Shown: piece after piece, positions 5,832 to 42,919 of the stretch
Layout: the number at the start of each line of letters is the position of its first letter
How positions within the stretch are numbered: position 1 is the first letter of the stretch
Source of the DNA: an uncultured Bacteroidota bacterium
GTDB lineage: Bacteria > Bacteroidota > Bacteroidia > Chitinophagales > Chitinophagaceae
Reading direction: 5' to 3'
DNA: 64,000 bases
Assembly: GCA_903824665.1 (NCBI GenBank)
Contig: CAIJXT010000004.1
Span: 1 to 64,000, forward strand
Position numbers and translations under genes: made by a program
The notes under the pieces: generated by a model
What the model was told of the DNA's origin: nothing
Database searches by the model: none
Seen by the model: only the letters and a program-made list of their open reading frames with translations

Positions 5832-6212
5832 GCCGGGGAGTTTGGCTTAAATGTAATGAAATATTTTATTTGGGGTGCAGGGGTATTAAGTGCGGGAAAC
5901 AGAGCGGGAGCGGAGGGAAAAAGGAGAGCGGGAGGGCTTCGCTCTAGGCTCGCCGCTCCCGCTCTCTTTTTTGTGCCCCTAACAGACAAAAACTTCGAAC
6001 CAATAAGGGCTTTCTGTTGTGGGTTATATCGAATGATTTCAGCTTTAGTTCACCGGTTGCCGTCGGGACACTGGAAAAGGAGACCCGACTGGGACGCAAG
6101 AACTGGTCGTATTTGCCGTTCAGGATGCACCGTGTTAAAATTCTAAACAACTGGGTTCAGCCTGGTAATATTGCTCCTCTTTTGCCAAACCTATATTGTG
6201 CGTTCGTATTTT
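5832..6212. other. Gene-free stretch with duplicated hairpin element
   Basis: 381 bases without a convincing gene. It holds the first copy of the 96-bp hairpin element (5884-5979). The rest shows no coding pattern or tRNA. Confidence 0.6.
5884..5979. repeat. Duplicated GC-rich hairpin element, copy 1
   Basis: A 96-bp sequence nearly identical to 7611-7704. It contains a long inverted repeat (GAGAGCGGGAG against CTCCCGCTCTC, with an inner GGC/GCC pair) followed by six T. The copy ends in GTGCCCC, which in copy 2 is the 3' end of tRNA-Leu, so this copy looks derived from the tRNA-Leu downstream region. Confidence 0.85.
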
Positions 6213-7265
6213 TTATTTCCAAGGTCCTCTTGTCGTTACGTTTATGATTTCATCTTTTTGATTGATTTTATATAATCCTCCTGCACCCGCCAACCAAATA
6301 ATTCCGTGTCTGTCTTTTAGTATACTTGTAATTGAAATTGGAACTGAATAATTCTTGAAATCTCGCCCATTGTATTTATACACTCCATTTTTCGTGGTGC
6401 TAATCCAGATGTTTTTTGCCCCGTCTTTATATATTGTATATACATCTCCATCATTGAAGCCTTTGATTTCAGGAAATGAAATCATCTTACTATTTACCAA
6501 TTTATTGATACCACCTTTCCCATTTCGTTTTTCCGGGTCTGGGTTGTCCCTTTCAGCTACCCTAGTTCCAAACCAAATATTTCCTTCACCATCAAATTCA
6601 ATTTCTGTTACATTATTCGAATGAAGACCATCTTTTTTTAGAAAATTTACAAACGACTTTCCATCAAATTTACATGCTCCATAGCCTTCACGTGCAAACC
6701 ACATATTTCCTTCAGCATCTTCATTTATTTCAGTTATCCAATATTTTGTATCTTCATTAATAGCTGTTTCCACTGTAGGGTAGGGAATCGGGAATGGGGT
6801 AAATAATTTTCCATCGAATTTATATACACCGCCCCAGGTGCCAATCCAAAATTGACCTTTACTATCGATATATAACTGGTTAACTACATTGCTTCCCCTC
6901 TGGTCTTTTTTTACAATAAAATTTGTAAAAGCTTTACCATCGAATTTTGACAGTCCTTCTCCTGTACTAAACCAATAAATACCATTAGTATCTTCAATCA
7001 CACTTGTTACTCTATTCGAGGGTAGTCCGTCATTTTTTGTAAAATACTTCAGTTGAATTCCATCATATCTCGCTATTCCTTCTTCAAGAGTACCAAACCA
7101 TAAATTTCCTTCAGAATCTTCAAAAGCGCTTATTACATAATTGCCAATTTGGGAAGCATTTTCTTTTGTACCCGAATCATCAACTTTGTTTGTTCTCACA
7201 TCTTTTATTTGTGAGTTACAGGAAGTTGTCCATATTGTTAGCATTAATATTGCAATCAGTTTCAT
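6213..7265 (-). CDS. Seven-bladed Reg_prop beta-propeller lipoprotein
   Basis: 350 residues with a lipoprotein signal (MKLIAILM to TTSC). Seven repeats of the two-component-regulator propeller type are visible, each with a DxxGNxWFGT-like strand and a KFDGK-like turn (for example FEDSEGNLWFGT, VIEDTNGIYWFST, IYKDGAKNIWIST). Seven is the number needed for one closed propeller. Such propellers usually form the sensor of hybrid histidine kinases; here no kinase part follows, so this is a free-standing surface or periplasmic propeller. A sampled line of the gene is about 35% GC, against about 50% in nearby housekeeping genes. Confidence 0.85.
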   Translation of the reverse strand: MKLIAILMLTIWTTSCNSQIKDVRTNKVDDSGTKENASQIGNYVISAFEDSEGNLWFGTLEEGIARYDGIQLKYFTKNDGLPSNRVTSVIEDTNGIYWFSTGEGLSKFDGKAFTNFIVKKDQRGSNVVNQLYIDSKGQFWIGTWGGVYKFDGKLFTPFPIPYPTVETAINEDTKYWITEINEDAEGNMWFAREGYGACKFDGKSFVNFLKKDGLHSNNVTEIEFDGEGNIWFGTRVAERDNPDPEKRNGKGGINKLVNSKMISFPEIKGFNDGDVYTIYKDGAKNIWISTTKNGVYKYNGRDFKNYSVPISITSILKDRHGIIWLAGAGGLYKINQKDEIINVTTRGPWK

Positions 7266-7698
7266 TTTTTTTATTTTTATAAAGCACAGAGGCTTACTGT
7301 TTTTCGTCCGGCTGACGACAGTACCCTCAACTGTCTAAACCAACAAACTGAATTAGTAGCCTAAACGCGGCCTCTTTTAGCTTGTATGAAAATACAACTT
7401 TCTGCGTAGCAGGCAATTTTACAAATGAATGAAAAAATGCGAATCCTGAAATGTGCTACCTTGTTGATGTTGCATTCAGCTACATATCTGGATGTCGTTG
7501 AGGCTCCCGTAGAAAAAACGGGAAGACATTTGTTCGAGATGTTCAGCTGGGCATCTCGAACAGCGAATAGAACTCCGTCTCCGACCGCCTTCAACTTGAC
7601 GAAGCTGAAATATTAAGAGCGGGAAACAGAGCGGGAGCGAGGTAAAAAGAGAGCGGGAGGGCTTCGCTCTACGCTCGCCGCTCCCGCTCTCTTTTTTG
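7266..7698. other. Gene-free stretch with hairpins downstream of tRNA-Leu
   Basis: 433 bases. Short open frames here are not convincing. It holds a perfect 11-bp hairpin (7531-7562), a smaller CCCGT/ACGGG stem (7506-7522), and copy 2 of the hairpin element. Confidence 0.6.
7531..7562. repeat. Perfect 11-bp inverted repeat
   Basis: TGTTCGAGATG (7531-7541) and CATCTCGAACA (7552-7562) flank a 10-nt loop. There is no T-run after either arm, so it is not a standard terminator. Confidence 0.7.
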
Positions 7699-7704
7699 TG
7701 CCCC
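7611..7704. repeat. Duplicated GC-rich hairpin element, copy 2
   Basis: Near-identical to 5884-5979. Here it directly follows tRNA-Leu on the minus strand and includes its last bases. T-runs on both sides of the stem let it serve as a terminator in either direction, most simply for tRNA-Leu. Confidence 0.85.
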
Positions 7705-7784
7705 AGACGGGAATTGAACCCGTACTTGCCTTGCGGCAAACAGGATTTTAAGTCCTGCGCGTCTACCAGTTCCGCCACCAGGGC
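7699..7784 (-). tRNA. tRNA-Leu (TAA)
   Basis: 86-nt minus-strand class II tRNA. Acceptor GCCCTGG pairs with CTGGGGC, the anticodon loop CTTAAAA gives TAA, a long variable arm TTGCC/GGCAA follows, and the T-arm is ACGGG/CCCGT. Discriminator A, CCA not encoded. Confidence 0.96.
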
Positions 7785-34779: not shown

Positions 34780-37695
34780 TTATACCACTATGTTGATCAT
34801 TTTTCCTTTCACGAATATGAATTTCTTCATTGGCTTATTTTCCATCCATTTCTGTACAGTGGCGTCAGCCAGTACTCCGGGTTCAATATCAGCTTGTTCT
34901 GCATCCGCTGCAAACGCCATTTCCACACGTTTTTTGCCGTTTATTGATACGCCATAGGTGATAGTGCTTTCAGCTATAAAACGGTCTTCATACTCCGGAA
35001 ACGCAGCATCTAGCACGGTTCCGGTATTGCCCATACCGCTCCACAATTCTTCTGCTATGTGTGGTGCAAACGGTGTTATAGCTACTACCAGAGGTTGCAG
35101 TACTGCGCGTTTGTGGCATCCCAGCGCAGCCAGTTCGTTCACACATATCATAAACTGGCTTACAGAGGTATTGAACGAAAACCGCTCCATGTCTTCGCTT
35201 ATCTTTTTCAGTGTTTTATGCAGTGTGCGCAGCTCGGCTTCGTTAGGCGCGTCGTCGGTCACTATCCATCCCTGATCCCCGGCAAACAGGCGCCAGAATT
35301 TTTTCAGGAAACGGTGCACACCTTCTATGCCCTTGGTATCCCATGGCTTGCTCACATCTATTGGGCCCAGAAACATTTCATACATTCTGAAGGTGTCTGC
35401 TCCATATTGCGCTACAATGTCGTCTGGGTTCACAACATTGTATTTTGATTTGGACATTTTTTCAACTTCAGACTGGCAAATAAAGGTGCCATCTGGTTCA
35501 CAGATATAAACAGAATCACTAAAATTAGGGTTCCATTTTTTTAGTTCATCAATTTTCAGCAGAACGCCGTCTACATATTCAATCGGAATTCTGATTGGCG
35601 CATCTTTAGATAAAATCAGTTCTGAAAGTGTACCACCGTTACCATATTGAGCATCCACATAGCTTATCGCATCTTTGTCGCCTTTCAATATCAACTCTCT
35701 GATATTTTTCGATATGTACCAATTGGTAACACCGTCTGAATCAGGTTTTATTGAAGGAACTGAATAGTTTGATCTATACAGAAACCGCGAACTCCCCTGA
35801 ATCATGCCCTGATTCAGCAGTTTTTTGAATGGCTCATCAAAACCTATATGTCCAAGGTCAAATAGTACCTTTGTCCACATGCGGCTGTAGAGCAGGTGGC
35901 CAACAGCATGTTCCGTTCCGCCCACGTATAGGTCTACCTGCTGCCAGTAGTCAGTCGCTTTTCTGTCCGCAAACGTAGCACCATTGTGCGGGTCCATATA
36001 CCTCAGAAAATACCAGCTGCTGCCTGCATATCCCGGCATGGTATTTGTCTCCCGGTTGCCTGCTGGTGTATTCACCCATTCTGGCAGGTTGGCCAGTGGT
36101 CCCTGTCCTTCAGGTCCGGGCTTGTAGCTATCTACATGGGGCAGCTCCACAGGCAGGTCGTTCACACCGTTCGCTCCTTTTGTGCCGGTCGTGTAGCGTT
36201 CCTCATCCACACCATAGGGTACATCATTCATATAAACAATCGGGAAGGGTTCACCCCAGTACCGTTGCCTGCTGAAGCCCGCGTCGCGCAGTCTGAAGTT
36301 GGTTCTTCTTTTCCCTGCACCTATGGCCACTAGTGCATTCAGTGCGGCTTCCGTAGCTTCTGCTATACGCATGCCGGTCAGGAAACCACTGTTCATGATC
36401 GTACCCGACTTGTCGCTGTATGCGTTATCACCGTTGTACAGATCGCCAAATATGTTCGTGATCGGGATGTTGAAGTGTTGCGCAAACGCATGGTCTCTAT
36501 CGTCACCGGCAGGTACAGCCATAATGGCGCCGGTGCCATATCCTGCCAGCACATATTCTGCTATCCATACCGGTATCAGATTGTTGCTCAGCGGATGGAT
36601 CGCATATGCGCCCGTGAAGCAACCTGTGATCTGTTTTACGTCCGCCATCCGTTCACGTTCAGAGCGGCTTTTTACATAGGTGCGGTACTCATCTATTACC
36701 GTCTTTTGTTGAGCCGTGGTGATCGTGTCAACAAGGGCATGCTCCGGTGCCAGCACTAGAAAATCTACCCCGAAGATCGTATCAGGCCGGGTAGTGAAAA
36801 CATGAACGGAAAGGGTTGGGGAGACATCAAACCTGACCTCTGCCCCTGTACTTTTGCCTACCCAGTTGCGCTGCATTTCTTTCATGGCATCTGTCCAATC
36901 CAGCGTGTCCAGCCCGGTCAGCAGTCTGTCTGCATATTCTGTAATCCGCAGAAACCACTGGCGCATCTGCTTGCGTTCCACAGGGTGCCCGCCTCGTTCA
37001 GATACCCCATTCACTACCTCGTCATTTGCCAGTACCGTGCCAAGCGCTTCGCACCACCATACAGCTGCATTGCCCTGATAGGCAAGGCGGTAGTGCATCA
37101 GCAACTTACGTTGTTCTTCTTCGCTGTAGCTGGTCCATTGTTCGTCGGTTACCACAAGTCCGTCCACATCGGGGCAGGGATTATTTATATTGCCCTCTTT
37201 TTCCAGTAGGGCTATCAGTTCCGTTATTGGCCTTGCCCGTTGCGCAGCACAGTCATACCAGCTATGAAACAGTTGCAGAAATATCCATTGTGTCCATTTA
37301 TAGTACCCGGGATCACTTGTCGTTACGGCCCGGTCCCAATCATAGCAGAACCCTATTTTGTTCAGTTGGTCCTTGTAGCGCTCTATGTTTTTTCGGGTGG
37401 TATCCGCCGGGTGTTGTCCTGTTTCCAGGGCATATTGCTCAGCTGGCAGCCCAAAGGCGTCGAAGCCCATAGGGTGCAGCACATTGTATCCTTTTAGCCG
37501 CTTGTAGCGGGCGTATATGTCAGACGCAATATAGCCAAGCGGGTGACCCACATGCAGCCCTGCCCCACTCGGGTAGGGAAACATATCCAATACATAGTAT
37601 TTGGGTTTGCTGCTTTCATTCGATACCTTATATACTTGTTTTTCGTTCCAGTATTGTTTCCAGCGTTGCTCTATTTCAGGGAAATTGTATTCCAT
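34780..37695 (-). CDS. leuS: Leucyl-tRNA synthetase
   Basis: 971 residues. HIGH-type motif PYPSGAGLHVGHPLGY near residue 45, editing domain (VFTTRPDTIFGVDF), SSWYFLRYMDPHN, and KMSKS in VEKMSKSKYNVVNPDD. Just before KMSKS there is a segment of about 108 residues (about 35466-35790) that is AT-rich: 37% GC over 300 counted bases against about 50% on both sides. It occupies the place of the variable leucine-specific domain. Own promoter and terminator; single-gene unit. Confidence 0.97.
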   Translation of the reverse strand: MEYNFPEIEQRWKQYWNEKQVYKVSNESSKPKYYVLDMFPYPSGAGLHVGHPLGYIASDIYARYKRLKGYNVLHPMGFDAFGLPAEQYALETGQHPADTTRKNIERYKDQLNKIGFCYDWDRAVTTSDPGYYKWTQWIFLQLFHSWYDCAAQRARPITELIALLEKEGNINNPCPDVDGLVVTDEQWTSYSEEEQRKLLMHYRLAYQGNAAVWWCEALGTVLANDEVVNGVSERGGHPVERKQMRQWFLRITEYADRLLTGLDTLDWTDAMKEMQRNWVGKSTGAEVRFDVSPTLSVHVFTTRPDTIFGVDFLVLAPEHALVDTITTAQQKTVIDEYRTYVKSRSERERMADVKQITGCFTGAYAIHPLSNNLIPVWIAEYVLAGYGTGAIMAVPAGDDRDHAFAQHFNIPITNIFGDLYNGDNAYSDKSGTIMNSGFLTGMRIAEATEAALNALVAIGAGKRRTNFRLRDAGFSRQRYWGEPFPIVYMNDVPYGVDEERYTTGTKGANGVNDLPVELPHVDSYKPGPEGQGPLANLPEWVNTPAGNRETNTMPGYAGSSWYFLRYMDPHNGATFADRKATDYWQQVDLYVGGTEHAVGHLLYSRMWTKVLFDLGHIGFDEPFKKLLNQGMIQGSSRFLYRSNYSVPSIKPDSDGVTNWYISKNIRELILKGDKDAISYVDAQYGNGGTLSELILSKDAPIRIPIEYVDGVLLKIDELKKWNPNFSDSVYICEPDGTFICQSEVEKMSKSKYNVVNPDDIVAQYGADTFRMYEMFLGPIDVSKPWDTKGIEGVHRFLKKFWRLFAGDQGWIVTDDAPNEAELRTLHKTLKKISEDMERFSFNTSVSQFMICVNELAALGCHKRAVLQPLVVAITPFAPHIAEELWSGMGNTGTVLDAAFPEYEDRFIAESTITYGVSINGKKRVEMAFAADAEQADIEPGVLADATVQKWMENKPMKKFIFVKGKMINIVV

Positions 37696-37751
37696 ATCCA
37701 GTAGACGGTAAGTTGGGTCAGCAAATACAGACCCGAAAAAATTAAAGACCG

Positions 37752-37759
37752 CAAAAATA
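37752..37759 (-). promoter_or_regulatory. -7 promoter element TATTTTTG (minus)
   Basis: Exact TAnnTTTG for leuS, with a TTG (37778-37780) 18 bases upstream of it, close to the usual -33 spacing. Confidence 0.5.
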
Positions 37760-37804
37760 CAAAACTAATACCTGTAACAACCACCAAAATTATCCATCTG
37801 TTGC

Positions 37805-37924
37805 ATGGCCGACCTGGTAGTCAGAAAATTGCAGAAGCATCCGGTGTACCAATTAGCCCGCAGGCAGGTAAGTGCCATGTATGAGTTTGTTGCACTAGGG
37901 TTGGTTCTCCTGTATCACTGGTAG
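37805..37924 (+). CDS. Possible 39-residue small protein
   Basis: ATG to TAG, basic N-terminal half (MADLVVRKLQKHPVYQL) and hydrophobic C-terminal half (EFVALGLVLLYHW) that could insert in a membrane. Not recognised. No clear promoter or ribosome binding site. It may be a real small protein or a remnant of a longer gene. Confidence 0.25.
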   Translation: MADLVVRKLQKHPVYQLARRQVSAMYEFVALGLVLLYHW

Positions 37925-38084
37925 CTAATTATCATCCCATTTTTGTGAATATCTTTCTGACCCTTTGTACGTGATTGGTCCGATTTTTGCAGCTAGACTA
38001 TGGGGTAATTCTTGCTATTATAATAATGATGATTGTAAAAATAATTTAAAACAAAAACTACATGAAATAGTAGCAGTGAGCAAA

Positions 38085-38106
38085 AGTGCGCAAAAAGTGC
38101 GCAAAA
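38085..38106. repeat. Tandem AGTGCGCAAAA, two copies
   Basis: Two exact adjacent 11-bp copies, with a related TGCGCAATTTT about 65 bases later, upstream of the MbnP/MbnH operon. Spacing of one helical turn fits a regulator site. Confidence 0.5.
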
Positions 38107-38447
38107 ATAAAATCTTATTTGCTTGTAAATCAATTAGTTAATGTTTTTCGTTTTATTTTCCGGCAATGCGCAATTTTGATACGTAGTGTAATGTTTTATA
38201 AATCAATTTGTGGCGAGGTCAGTACTTTTTATACGTATGGCTAGCGTTCAGCAGTGTTCTTTTTTTTACCTTTTGTTGCTGGTTTACCCTTTTCAGGTGG
38301 TGTCGAGACCGCTGATATTGGTCAGTAAATCGCTTTTTTTAACAATTTCAATGCAGCGCATTCCGCATTTGTTGCTAATTTTATTACAGGTTAATAACCA
38401 TAAGTGATGGTAGGTGCCATCAGGCATATTAATGTTAATTGTTTTGT

Positions 38448-38849
38448 ATGAGAAAATTGATGATGCTGTTCGCAGCTGTTTTGTTCTTGAGTATCGGGGT
38501 ATTGGCACAAGGGAAGTTCGATAAATGGCCCGAAATGAAAACATACCACGGAACGTTGTCGCAGACTTTTCATCCGGCAGAGGAAGGTGACCTCAAGCCT
38601 ATTCGAACCCGTTCGCACGAATTGTACGCCAATGCCAAGTTGGTGGCTGCGTCTCCAATACCGGGAGAGTACGACAACGACGACATCCGGAAACTGATCA
38701 AGCGAATGGTCAAAGAAGCCGACAAATTGAACGCACTCGTGGTTTTGCAGGAGCAAAATACCACGATCATGAAACAATTTAATATAGTGCATAGCACCTT
38801 TCACGAGATAGCAGGCATGTGCAAAAAGGAAGAAAAACAAGCTAAATAA
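38448..38849 (+). CDS. Secreted His-rich helical protein in MbnP/MbnH operon
   Basis: 133 residues from ATG 38448. Signal peptide MRKLMMLFAAVLFL to VLAQ. The mature part looks all-helical and has paired His motifs that could bind metal: TYHGTLSQTFHPAEEG near the start and VHSTFHEIAGMCKK at the end. Not recognised by name; the layout recalls a four-helix bundle such as cytochrome c-prime but without CxxCH. It is 11 bases upstream of the MbnP-like gene, so it is the first gene of that operon. A metal or copper role is inferred. Confidence 0.7.
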   Translation: MRKLMMLFAAVLFLSIGVLAQGKFDKWPEMKTYHGTLSQTFHPAEEGDLKPIRTRSHELYANAKLVAASPIPGEYDNDDIRKLIKRMVKEADKLNALVVLQEQNTTIMKQFNIVHSTFHEIAGMCKKEEKQAK

Positions 38850-38860
38850 CCCGAATCATC

Positions 38861-39625
38861 ATGATACAATATGTGAGATTGTCAGTTACCGCGTTGATGC
38901 TTTCCCTTTTGGTAAGCGCCTGCGAAAAGAAAGATCCGCCCGCTCCTGAAACAGGTGTAAGTACCGTGAAGGTTGAAGTAGCGAATAAGGTGGGTACCGC
39001 TAACCTTTCACTCAATAATCAGTGGTACCTGAATGAGCATAGCGACTCGTTTACGGTGTCTAAGTTGATGTACTACCTCAGCAATGTGCAACTTGTTGGG
39101 GCGGCTGGCACATATACAGAGGTGGAAAGTTATCACCTTGTCAGTCAGGCCGATGCGGCGTCGCTGGTGTTGGATCTGAAGGATGTGCCTGTAGGCGACT
39201 ATACCAAAATCACCTTTATGATAGGTGTTGATAGTCTTCGCAACGTATCTGGCGCACAAACCGGTGCACTCGATCCGGTTAATGGCATGTTCTGGTCGTG
39301 GAACACAGGCTACATTATGCTCAAACTGGAAGGGAATTCACCCAAATCCCCGCTCACAGATGGTGGTCTGGTTTTTCATGCCGGTGGCTACAAAGGGCAG
39401 TATGCTGTGCAACGCACAGTCAGCATTACATTGCCGGCTGCTATAACCGTCAAAAAGGGCGTGGTAAATCACATTCATCTTGATGCCGATGTACTGAAAA
39501 TGTTCAAATCGCCAACTTTGTTCGATTTTGCTACATTGCATACTATCCATTCTGAAGGAAAAGATGCAAAGAATTTTGCCGACAATTATTCCGGTATGTT
39601 CACCGTGTCCTACTCCGGACTGTAA
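38861..39625 (+). CDS. MbnP-like metal-binding lipoprotein
   Basis: 254 residues, lipobox LLVSAC. The mature protein follows the MbnP family: VKVEVANKVG, VSKLMYYLSNVQL, ITFMIGVDSLRNVSG, the signature MFWSWNTGYIMLKLEG (W145, W147), LVFHAGGY and NHIHLDADVLKMF. In methanotrophs MbnP binds copper after the partner MbnH turns one Trp into kynurenine. The MbnH-like gene follows after about 100 bases, so the same pairing is likely. Which Trp is modified cannot be told here. Confidence 0.85.
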   Translation: MIQYVRLSVTALMLSLLVSACEKKDPPAPETGVSTVKVEVANKVGTANLSLNNQWYLNEHSDSFTVSKLMYYLSNVQLVGAAGTYTEVESYHLVSQADAASLVLDLKDVPVGDYTKITFMIGVDSLRNVSGAQTGALDPVNGMFWSWNTGYIMLKLEGNSPKSPLTDGGLVFHAGGYKGQYAVQRTVSITLPAAITVKKGVVNHIHLDADVLKMFKSPTLFDFATLHTIHSEGKDAKNFADNYSGMFTVSYSGL

Positions 39626-39725
39626 GCATAGGTTGCTTCAGGTTTGGGGTTTTGAGCCCTGTCATGATACCTGTGCGGTTTTTTGGGACTGTTGAAGAAG
39701 TGTCGGTTTTTCGTAAATTGCAGTG

Positions 39726-40775
39726 ATGAAAAAAGCGTGGATAATTGGTGTTTTGGTATTGGCTGGCACGCTGTTTACCATCGGCGGATGTAAGAAAGAC
39801 ACGATAGACCCCGGTACATGGCAGCCCGTTTCATTTGCAGTACCCGCCGGTTGGCCGCAACCTGCGTATGCTTTCGTCAACAATCCCCTTACTTCCGAAG
39901 GTTTTATACTGGGTCGTAAGTTGTTTTACGATGTCCGCCTCTCGCGCGACAATACCATTTCCTGCGGTACCTGTCATCAGCAGTTCGCATCTTTTGCACA
40001 TCTCGATCACGATGTGAGTCATGGCATCTATGGTTTGTTTGGCACCCGCAACTCTCCGGGGCTTGCCAATATGGCCTGGCACACCTCTTTCTTTTGGGAT
40101 GGAGGGGTGAATCATCTCGAAAGCCAGCCAATAAATCCGATACAGAACCACGTTGAAATGGATATGACCATGCCCGAGGTGATCACTCGTGTTGGTGCTG
40201 ATGCCGATTACAAAGGGCGCTTCAAAAAAGTGTTTGGTGATGAAACCGTCAACTCACAGCGAATTTTTCGTGCAATGGCGCAGTTTATGGGTGCAATGGT
40301 TTCCGCCGATTCAAAGTATGACAAGGTGATCCGAAACGAACCCGGCTTCCTTTTTTCACCGGCCGAACAACGCGGCCTTACACTTTTCAGGCAGAAGTGT
40401 GCTACCTGCCACAAAGAGCCACTGTTCTCCGATTTTTCTTTTCGCAACAATGGTCTTGTGCCTAAGGCCTCTGTCAATGATAGCGGCAGGGCACATATCA
40501 CCCGCGAGGTGTCAGATCTGTATAAGTTCAAAGTGCCATCTCTCCGCAATATCTTGCTATCCCGGCCCTATATGCACGATGGCCGTTTTACAACGCTCGA
40601 TGCTGTATTGGAACATTACCGTACAGGCGTAGTGGCAACCGCTACCACAGACCCATTGCTTTCTTCCGGCATAACACTGACCACTGAAGAAAAAAATGAT
40701 ATCATTATTTTCCTCGGAACGCTCACAGATAGTACCTTTATTAAAAACAAGCTATTTGCCGAGCCGGCCAAATAG
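39726..40775 (+). CDS. MbnH-like diheme cytochrome c peroxidase (MauG family)
   Basis: 349 residues from ATG 39726; a GTG lies one codon earlier. Lipobox TIGGC. Two heme c sites: CGTCH (C80, C83, H84) and CATCH (C225, C228, H229). The family's conserved DVRLSRDNTISC, FWDGGVNHLESQ, IQNHVEM and PSLRNILLSRPYMHDGRF are present. MauG-type enzymes use a bis-Fe(IV) state to oxidise residues of a partner protein. Given the MbnP-like gene directly upstream, its substrate is probably that protein's Trp. Confidence 0.9.
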   Translation: MKKAWIIGVLVLAGTLFTIGGCKKDTIDPGTWQPVSFAVPAGWPQPAYAFVNNPLTSEGFILGRKLFYDVRLSRDNTISCGTCHQQFASFAHLDHDVSHGIYGLFGTRNSPGLANMAWHTSFFWDGGVNHLESQPINPIQNHVEMDMTMPEVITRVGADADYKGRFKKVFGDETVNSQRIFRAMAQFMGAMVSADSKYDKVIRNEPGFLFSPAEQRGLTLFRQKCATCHKEPLFSDFSFRNNGLVPKASVNDSGRAHITREVSDLYKFKVPSLRNILLSRPYMHDGRFTTLDAVLEHYRTGVVATATTDPLLSSGITLTTEEKNDIIIFLGTLTDSTFIKNKLFAEPAK

Positions 40776-40792
40776 GTGAAAAATACGACGAT

Positions 40793-41191
40793 ATGAGACC
40801 TCTTTTGCTTTTATTATCAGTAGCCTTGGTGCTCACGGGTTGTGAGCATGAACCCTTCAGAGCTATAGGGGGAAAAGGTGGCAATGCCACACTGAATGTG
40901 TATCCTAGTCATCACGGAGTTACCGCGCCGCTCGATAGTATGGTCGTATACATTAAGTATGATGCCGAAGACGTGCCGGCCAATGGCGTTTATGATGACT
41001 CAGCTACATGTACCTATATTAACTCGCTGCCCTCATGTACATTTTCAGGACTCACAAATGGTAATTACTACCTGTACAGCAAAGGATATGATTACAACAT
41101 TTCCGCCAGGGTGAAAGGCGGCATTCCTTATACAGTGAAATTGCAGTCTGCACAAAATGTGAACTTGCCCGTAGGCGAAGAATCATTGTAA
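40793..41191 (+). CDS. Small lipoprotein in MbnP/MbnH operon
   Basis: 132 residues, lipobox LVLTGC. The mature part is beta-rich (GNATLNVYPSHHGV, DSMVVYIKYDAEDVP, TFSGLTNGNYYLYSKGYD) and resembles a small Ig-like or prealbumin-like domain. It contains a HH pair and two Cys. Not recognised by name. It starts 17 bases after the MbnH-like gene and precedes a terminator, so it is the last gene of the operon. Confidence 0.72.
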   Translation: MRPLLLLLSVALVLTGCEHEPFRAIGGKGGNATLNVYPSHHGVTAPLDSMVVYIKYDAEDVPANGVYDDSATCTYINSLPSCTFSGLTNGNYYLYSKGYDYNISARVKGGIPYTVKLQSAQNVNLPVGEESL

Positions 41192-41219
41192 TATCATCGG
41201 TCTTTGCACGGTTGTCACG

Positions 41220-41242
41220 CTACCTGGTTCAGGTGGTTTTTT
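41220..41242 (+). terminator. MbnP/MbnH operon terminator
   Basis: 7-bp stem CTACCTG/CAGGTGG with a GTT loop (41220-41236), then six T. Confidence 0.7.
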
Positions 41243-41348
41243 GATGTTCACACCGTAACATAGATTGTGTCGGGGTCTTCAGACAATGCACAGCAAAAAT
41301 ATATCGCAGGTTGCGATAGCCTTTTGACGGATGCAGGCGTGATTTGTG

Positions 41349-41483
41349 TTATTTCAGCAGGGTAGGAGGGGTAAACATGTGTCCCGGACAGCCATATTTT
41401 TTGGTGCCACAAGATGACATTGTGAGGAATGCTACAACGGCTATTATGGGCATTAAGCGCTTGATTTTAGAAATTACCTGCAT
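41349..41483 (-). CDS. Very small lipoprotein (44 residues)
   Basis: Starts at ATG 41483 (MQVISKIKRLMPIIAVVAF) with lipobox TMSSC and a mature part of about 20 residues beginning CGTKKYGCPGH. This short Cys/Gly/Lys form is common in Bacteroidota. It is divergent from the Mpl-type gene. Function unknown; an upstream in-frame start at 41552 would overlap that gene's promoter and is unlikely. Confidence 0.6.
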   Translation of the reverse strand: MQVISKIKRLMPIIAVVAFLTMSSCGTKKYGCPGHMFTPPTLLK

Positions 41484-41488
41484 ACTTA

Positions 41489-41524
41489 TTTGGTTATGAA
41501 TAGTAAAAAGCTGGATTAACTTTG
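41489..41524 (+). promoter_or_regulatory. Promoter TTTG-N24-TAACTTTG
   Basis: -33-like TTTG (41489-41492) and exact -7 TAACTTTG (41517-41524), 30 bases before the Mur ligase start at 41555. Confidence 0.55.
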
Positions 41525-41554
41525 TACGAAGATACGAAAAAGATAAAAACAAAC

Positions 41555-42919
41555 ATGCAAAACATTCATTTTATAGCCGTTGGGGGAGCCATTATGCACC
41601 AGCTTGCTTTGGCGCTTCACCGGAAAGGATATGTAGTGACCGGAAGCGACGATGAGATCACTGATCCTGCAAAGGCCAACCTCGCCGCGGCGGGTCTGCT
41701 ACCGCAGCAATTCGGTTGGTTTCCGGAGAAGATCACCCCGACTCTCGATGCGGTGGTGCTGGGCATGCATGCAAAAGGTGACAATCCCGAATTGCTGGCC
41801 GCTAAAGCTGCCGGGATCCCTGTCTATTCGTTTCCACAGTATGTTTACGAGGTCAGTAAGAACAAAAAGAGAGTTGTGGTGGCAGGCAGTCATGGTAAAA
41901 CTACGATCACTTCCATGATCATGCACATCCTCAGGCATCAGCATGTAGATTTCGATTATCTGGTGGGCGCCAAGGTTGCAGGTTTCGATCAGTCGGTGAG
42001 GCTTACTGATGCGCCACTGATTGTCCTGGAAGGCGACGAATATCCGGCATCGGCAGAAGAAAAACGCCCCAAAATCTTATTTTATCACCCGCATATCAGC
42101 GTACTCAGCGGCATTGCCTGGGATCATATTAACGTATTTCCGACTTACGATATTTATTTCAACCAGTTTGAGCAATACTTGCTGGGAATGGAAGAGGGTA
42201 CCAAGGTCTTTTACAATAGTGAAGACACCGAGGTTATCCGGGTCATTGGTGGCTCTGGCGGCCGTGTTGTCGCACACCCGTATTGTACGCCTCCGTTTCA
42301 TTACGACAACGGACATCCGGTAATCGAAACCGAAAATGGCCCCGTGACCGTATCTGTTTTCGGCAGACACAATCTGCTCAACATGCGCGCGGCAATCGAT
42401 GTATGTATGGAGTTGGGAATTGCAGAGAAAGATTGTTATGTGGCTATAGCCTCGTTCACAGGCGCAGCCCGCCGGCTGGAGAAGGTTAAGGAAGAGCCCG
42501 GATTGCTGGTATACCGCGACTTCGCCCATGCTCCCAGCAAACTGAAAGCTACGCTCGACGCTGTGCGCGAAGCCTACCCCGATCATCAACTTATAGCTTG
42601 CTTCGAGCTGCATACATTCAGTAGCCTTAATGAGCAATTTCTGTCACAGTATGCCGGTAGCATGAACGGCGCCGACGAAGCAATAGTGTACTTCAGTCAT
42701 CATGCGCTTAAGCTCAAAGGGCTCCCTAATCTTGAGCCCGGTGTGGTAAAGCAGTATTTTGCCAGGGAAGATGTTTTGGTGATAGACAACAAACAACAAC
42801 TCGAGGCAGCCGTAACTGAAAAAATCTCAGGCAATACAAGACCGGTTTTTTTATTGTTGATGAGCTCCGGCACTTTCGATGGAATTGACTGGAATGCCGT
42901 AAGTTCGCACCAGAAATAG
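41555..42919 (+). CDS. mpl: Mpl-type UDP-N-acetylmuramate-tripeptide ligase
   Basis: 454 residues from ATG 41555 (MQNIHFIAVGGAIMHQLA, Rossmann start). The Mur ligase ATP loop is VVVAGSHGKTTITSM; VLEGDEYPAS, LSGIAWDHINVFPTYD and FGRHNLLNMRAAI follow. This pattern, and the length, fits Mpl, which joins the recycled tripeptide Ala-Glu-DAP to UDP-MurNAc, rather than MurC. The next gene starts 5 bases after its stop. Confidence 0.88.
   Translation: MQNIHFIAVGGAIMHQLALALHRKGYVVTGSDDEITDPAKANLAAAGLLPQQFGWFPEKITPTLDAVVLGMHAKGDNPELLAAKAAGIPVYSFPQYVYEVSKNKKRVVVAGSHGKTTITSMIMHILRHQHVDFDYLVGAKVAGFDQSVRLTDAPLIVLEGDEYPASAEEKRPKILFYHPHISVLSGIAWDHINVFPTYDIYFNQFEQYLLGMEEGTKVFYNSEDTEVIRVIGGSGGRVVAHPYCTPPFHYDNGHPVIETENGPVTVSVFGRHNLLNMRAAIDVCMELGIAEKDCYVAIASFTGAARRLEKVKEEPGLLVYRDFAHAPSKLKATLDAVREAYPDHQLIACFELHTFSSLNEQFLSQYAGSMNGADEAIVYFSHHALKLKGLPNLEPGVVKQYFAREDVLVIDNKQQLEAAVTEKISGNTRPVFLLLMSSGTFDGIDWNAVSSHQK

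Follow-up and report, generated by a model that had tools for sequence, protein, structure and literature searches.

The window, a 64,000-nt stretch from an uncultured bacterium of the Chitinophagaceae (Bacteroidota), contains four genes on the + strand at 38448–41191, in the order G1–MbnP–MbnH–LP by open-frame reading (Table 1). This agrees with a preliminary description of the same DNA, which had proposed a four-gene operon combining an MbnP/MbnH-like pair with two unstudied partners. The intergenic gaps measure 11 nt (G1/MbnP), 100 nt (MbnP/MbnH) and 17 nt (MbnH/LP), with a GTG at 39723 as a possible alternative start for MbnH. The 100-nt gap leaves room for an internal promoter, and a single transcript of all four genes is putative. 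By eye, all four products look exported, G1 through a Sec-type signal and MbnP, MbnH and LP through a lipobox Cys. A consensus scan found 7 terminator-like sites where shuffled sequence averaged 3.7, a sigma-70-type promoter scan gave 6 matches against a shuffle mean of 7.9 and hence no excess, and Rfam elements gave 0 matches at gathering scores at positions 37000–42000. A 971-aa gene, leuS by eye, lies 5′ of the operon in the opposite direction. The full order recurs in five more genomes of the genus (G002, G009, G018, G021 and G034), which with G000 make six of the nine genus genomes that have G1 beside the operon.

Table 1. Features of the G1–MbnP–MbnH–LP locus, in positions of the window
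Feature	Position	Strand	Description and basis
G1	38448..38849	+	133 aa; exported, predicted four-helix protein of an unnamed family; open reading frame
MbnP-family lipoprotein	38861..39625	+	254 aa; open reading frame, PF20243
M-x-W-x-W motif, Met143-Phe-Trp145-Ser-Trp147	39287..39301	+	Weak profile alignment to GMAWNW of MbnP 7L6G
His173 codon, predicted copper ligand	39377..39379	+	Weak profile alignment to a His of 7L6G
MbnH-type diheme c lipoprotein, bCcP/MauG superfamily	39726..40775	+	349 aa from ATG; PF03150
First haem motif of MbnH, CGTCH (Cys80–His84)	39963..39977	+	C80, C83 and H84 invariant in alignment of 20 MbnHs
Second haem motif of MbnH, CATCH (Cys225–His229)	40398..40412	+	C225, C228 and H229 invariant in alignment of 20 MbnHs
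LP, lipoprotein of an unnamed family	40793..41191	+	132 aa; GGKGG...P-x-HHG...VYIKY...YDDS; open reading frame
Terminator-like hairpin 3′ of LP	41219..41237	+	8-pair stem and T-rich tail; consensus match only

The second protein had been called MbnP-like on account of an FWSWNTGY motif. It matches PF20243 at 183.8 bits (E = 4.2 × 10−54; gathering cut-off 27), and the motif is there, with W145 at 39293–39295 and W147 at 39299–39301. Its AlphaFold model (35 sequences, pLDDT 90.6) had six matches at E < 0.001, each of them a chain of MbnP 7L6G (best E = 3.9 × 10−8; TM 0.45–0.58), and a profile of the 35 MbnP sequences found 7L6G as its sole, weak match in the PDB (E = 0.13), an alignment that pairs Met143-x-Trp145-x-Trp147 with GMAWNW, and His173 with a His. 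A test for the WxW, Met and His, which addresses residues only, found M143, W145, W147 and H173 all present. PF20243 proteins occur in 122 of the 149 genomes searched (the window's own and relatives), with four copies in the window genome. The fetched loci contain 106 distinct MbnPs, of which 82 have the signature MWWH and 6 have NWWH. One paralogue, on contig C8 of the window genome (L004/L150), sits beside an MbnH-like gene and has the signature MWMH, the second Trp of its WxW being replaced. A 2021 PNAS study reportedly showed that the first Trp of the MbnP WxW is converted to kynurenine and that the Cu(I) site includes a Met and a His. For the window MbnP we infer kynurenine formation, predicted at Trp145, and Cu(I) binding.

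Next in order comes the diheme enzyme that the preliminary description had likened to MbnH. It matches PF03150 (CCP_MauG; E = 4.6 × 10−51), has two CxxCH motifs, adjoins MbnP, and has MbnH 6E1C as its nearest solved relative (E = 1.4 × 10−43; 9.3 × 10−76 by profile). Trp118 and Met283 are common to the window protein and 6E1C, whereas the two classic peroxidases aligned have Met or Phe at the Trp118 position and Phe at that of Met283. Judged by its sequence, the third protein is an MbnH-type diheme enzyme, with a bis-Fe(IV) state and Trp oxidation predicted. Its best NCBIfam model is TIGR04039 (MbnH), at 214.9 bits below the cut-off of 362.85, and MbnP scores 44.2 bits against the cut-off of 140 for TIGR04052 (the MbnP_like_WxW equivalog), whose four-Cys motif it lacks, its sole Cys being Cys21. 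Because both fall below the NCBIfam cut-offs and MbnP lacks the four Cys, we class the pair as MbnP- and MbnH-type members, not as equivalogs. In another locus (L069, around 5980–7737), MbnP and MbnH frames are seemingly in broken pieces.

The stated lack of a methanobactin gene is borne out to the extent that MbnB can test for it: PF05114 (MbnB_TglH_ChrH) and TIGR04159 (MbnB) gave 0 matches in the 99.4%-complete window genome; among 14 named control genomes, PF05114 was positive in 2 and TIGR04159 exceeded its cut-off in none. On this absence of MbnB, a methanobactin operon was rejected.

The first protein had been described as exported and helical with His pairs, and the last as a small lipoprotein; both descriptions fit. 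The AlphaFold model of G1 (pLDDT 86.9) has four helices (28–45, 50–68, 78–99 and 104–132), and the His pairs are His34/His42 and His115/His119. Scans of Pfam and NCBIfam gave no family for G1 and no match of note for LP, in keeping with the view of them as unstudied. Conserved in G1 are Trp27, the four His and Cys125. All four His are present in 18 of 22 aligned homologues; of 52 distinct homologues from the fetched loci, a few of them partial frames, 43 have the full set. The copy in G029 has lost all four, though it stands in the same type of operon. With the model, Foldseek found no PDB match below E = 0.001, its weak matches including cytochromes b562 and c′ (E = 0.06–0.15). With neither a family nor a significant fold match, no function could be assigned to G1 with confidence.

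The preliminary description also made conservation of the partners beside the pair a test of its proposal, and on this G1 gives a divided answer: within the genus 9 of 10 copies adjoin MbnP or MbnH, but outside it G1 lies beside MbnP–MbnH in only 2 of the 34 loci viewed (of 48). Overall, G1 is present in 25 of the 149 genomes (10 of 35 in the genus), adjoining MbnP/MbnH in 10 of these 25, the window's own included. In a sample of 395 genomes from the phylum, 36 have G1, three of them already counted above. The two outside cases, G055 and G268, belong to two other genera of the family: in G055, G1 is 3′ of MbnH, and in G268 a DJ-1/PfpI protein with a G1-like C-terminal part (L277:5788–6933, −) lies just 5′ of MbnP–MbnH. 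Three further outside copies (G053, G201 and G273) stand beside only c2 or c3, families described below. A G1-like domain also forms the C terminus of Fe/Mn superoxide dismutases (L093:805–1833, +; L271:5553–6542, −; by eye also L095, L269 and L279). Other neighbours of G1 include SCO1 (near L269), a CusB-type adaptor (near L271) and a YHS protein, and further copies sit by genes that look like housekeeping genes by eye. The '2 TGA' reported in the G1 of G018 seem to be an artefact of gapped search, a 130-aa frame being open there.

For LP, the expectation of conservation stood. It is present in 56 of the 149 genomes, 33 of the 35 in the genus among them, and has 50 distinct members in the fetched loci, with His40 in 90%. 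Of the 39 genomes viewed (of 56), 31 have LP no more than 6 kb away from a gene for MbnP, MbnH, c2, c3 or c9. One genus supplies most of the 39, such that chance figures, which assume independent genomes, are a guide only. MbnP or MbnH itself is near in 26 of the 39. The eight genomes with no cluster gene nearby (G006, G022, G025, G027, G033, G039, G045 and G060) include several with short contigs. LP and the cluster share a strand in 13 of the 31 genomes with a cluster gene nearby; in the other 18, LP is encoded on the opposite strand, and many of the MbnPs there lack WxW. LP is thus not tied to MbnH, and, as it is often beside MbnPs without WxW, it is not tied to kynurenine either.

Other families recur around MbnP copies. 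The c2 family (L034, L035, L053, L145 and others), of about 125 aa with the motif LCENKxKPxxxCxGKCxLxK, often leads MbnP clusters: of 52 distinct copies, 49 are followed by a cluster gene at a distance of 3 kb or less, and 35 lack any same-strand frame of ≥150 aa close upstream. The c3 family (L034, L053, L057 and L145), of about 305 aa, barrel-like by eye and with an N-terminal ACDxCGC, often lies near c2 and MbnP; a Pfam scan of one copy gave no match. The motifs of c2 (CxGKC), c3 and c9 (HGY and HxH) suggest a putative part in envelope metal traffic.

The presence of WxW in MbnP goes together with that of MbnH. In the fetched loci, MbnH is next to MbnP for 67 of 86 MbnPs with WxW and for 2 of 16 without, a tally of the 106 distinct MbnPs that omits 4 cut off downstream. 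The Fisher p value of 1 × 10−6 overstates this link because the loci, fetched by likeness to the window genes including LP, are related and not a random sample. The other 19 of 86 WxW MbnPs have no MbnH next to them. The 11 MbnPs classed as followed by c24 are all without WxW, and none of them has His in the aligned column. The c24 family itself (L161, L162, L248, L252, L253, L255 and L265) comprises lipoproteins with a CxnCH haem-like motif encoded 3′ of WxW-less MbnPs, a position that looks as if MbnH had been swapped out.

The converse arrangement, G1–MbnH–LP without MbnP, is found in three genomes of the genus (G007, G013 and G029), whose MbnHs form a group (support 0.85) nested inside the others in the MbnH tree. 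These three genomes and that of the window have a second, unlinked MbnP of NFWSW type (on contig C13 in the window genome; at a contig end in G013). No MbnH was found next to this orphan, nor did searches of the four genomes find a further close MbnH for it. In G009 and G018, MbnH adjoins the second MbnP. The operon MbnP is lost from one clade that has retained an orphan MbnP with WxW. The simplest reading of this single clade is that an unlinked MbnP is served by one MbnH, so that the enzyme may work in trans. The orphan type has Asn at the Met143 position, and its site may therefore differ.

From the families, fold, motif, synteny, WxW–MbnH link and loss pattern that the computations establish, we think it probable, with some reserve, that the operon is a kynurenine-dependent module for copper handling in the envelope, made up of an MbnH-matured MbnP, a metal-binding G1 and an accessory LP. 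In this module MbnH, as a diheme lipoprotein, would oxidize Trp145 in MbnP, itself a lipoprotein, and the resulting kynurenine would complete the Cu(I) site together with Met143 and His173. G1, as a periplasmic four-helix protein, would bind metal, most likely copper, at its four-His cluster and would either buffer it or hand it to MbnP, LP would serve as an accessory lipoprotein of MbnP clusters, and MbnH may also mature the second WxW MbnP of the window genome in trans. Kynurenine, copper, the metal on G1, the roles of G1 and LP and the direction of copper flow are parts of this picture that we infer. A broader version, entertained only tentatively, would make this a modular kynurenine–copper system of Bacteroidota in which MbnH matures several unlinked MbnPs, the exchange for c24 brings loss of WxW and G1 is a new helical four-His metallochaperone, fused elsewhere to superoxide dismutases, that handles the metal.

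The evidence from gene neighbourhoods bears on whether G1 and LP belong to the module at all. MbnP and MbnH might work as proposed with G1 and LP as mere neighbours of unrelated function, for example in envelope stress, kept in place by vertical inheritance. The scarcity of G1 beside MbnP outside the genus would fit this, as would Chitinophaga loci that have the pair without G1 or LP, the placement of LP divergent from MbnP or beside WxW-less MbnPs, and the recurrence of c10 (by eye leuS) next to the operon in 9 of 9 genus genomes with G1 next to MbnH. Against these stand the varied arrangements in which LP keeps near MbnP-cluster genes and the adjacency of G1 to MbnP–MbnH in two other genera, once as the DJ-1 fusion; we regard coincidental neighbours as rather unlikely.

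A haem-binding G1 is more doubtful still. The four-helix model, the weak b562/c′ matches and conserved His on helices 1 and 4 could point to a b562/c′-like protein, or to a redox partner giving electrons to MbnH, in place of a copper chaperone, but G1 has no significant PDB match and no CxxCH, conserves four ligands and not one or two, and occurs in many copies, free or fused to superoxide dismutase, with no MbnH in the viewed stretch. Least probable, in our estimation only a slim chance, is that MbnP goes unmodified, with the diheme enzyme acting as an ordinary peroxidase or on a different target, perhaps Trp27 of G1. The three G1–MbnH–LP operons without MbnP, and the retention of Trp27 in 47 of 52 G1 homologues, speak for such a target; G1 copies that lack a nearby MbnH retain Trp27 as well, however, WxW accompanies an adjacent MbnH in the fetched loci, and Trp118 and Met283, which the two aligned bCcPs lack, are common to the enzyme and MbnH 6E1C. 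The copper-handling module remains our preferred reading. It places a likely protein-derived kynurenine copper site in Bacteroidota without methanobactin and makes two unnamed partner families, G1 and LP, testable. The genomes also offer a natural experiment, with some MbnPs lacking both WxW and an adjacent MbnH, and some MbnHs having no MbnP as neighbour. From such cases one would learn if MbnH works in trans and what purpose the site has outside methanobactin.

A literature search found no paper joining MbnP with Bacteroidetes, and none under 'metallo-mystery pair'. Because a 2021 PNAS paper reportedly contains a neighbourhood analysis that may already show Bacteroidota clusters, we do not claim that such clusters are absent from print.

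Among known proteins, cytochromes b562 and c′ resemble G1 in its four-helix model and differ from it in the points given above. In the part of the literature available, MopE carries kynurenine, and in MopE/SACCP and CorA/CorB of other methanotrophs a diheme enzyme adjoins a copper protein, as here. A relation of the window MbnP to MopE or CorA was nevertheless rejected, as profile and fold (E < 0.001) searches of the PDB, in which both are present according to their abstracts, gave only 7L6G. MbnPH-like genes are also described, in the available part of PMC9426467, in operons with CruR (DUF2946) homologues. These begin with a small protein, a first position that c2 often takes in relatives of the window genome; unlike them, the window operon has no c2, and the one c2 protein scanned had no DUF2946 match.

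That MbnP/MbnH pairs exist without methanobactin is already known: conservation of the pair far beyond methanobactin producers was stated in 2013 (PMC3621798, as far as available), and pairs outside methanobactin operons (GenProp0940) resemble the one described here in this respect. The partners G1 and LP are unnamed, and they and the c2–c3–c9 surroundings go unmentioned in the available part of PMC3621798. The closest comparison is with MbnP and MbnH of Methylosinus trichosporium OB3b (7L6G and 6E1C), with which the window pair shares the MbnP–MbnH order, the MbnP fold, the M-x-W-x-W motif and His, the two CxxCH motifs and Trp118/Met283. Unlike that system, the window genome has no MbnB and its MbnP no four-Cys motif, and the pair has G1 and LP as neighbours and is read as two lipoproteins.
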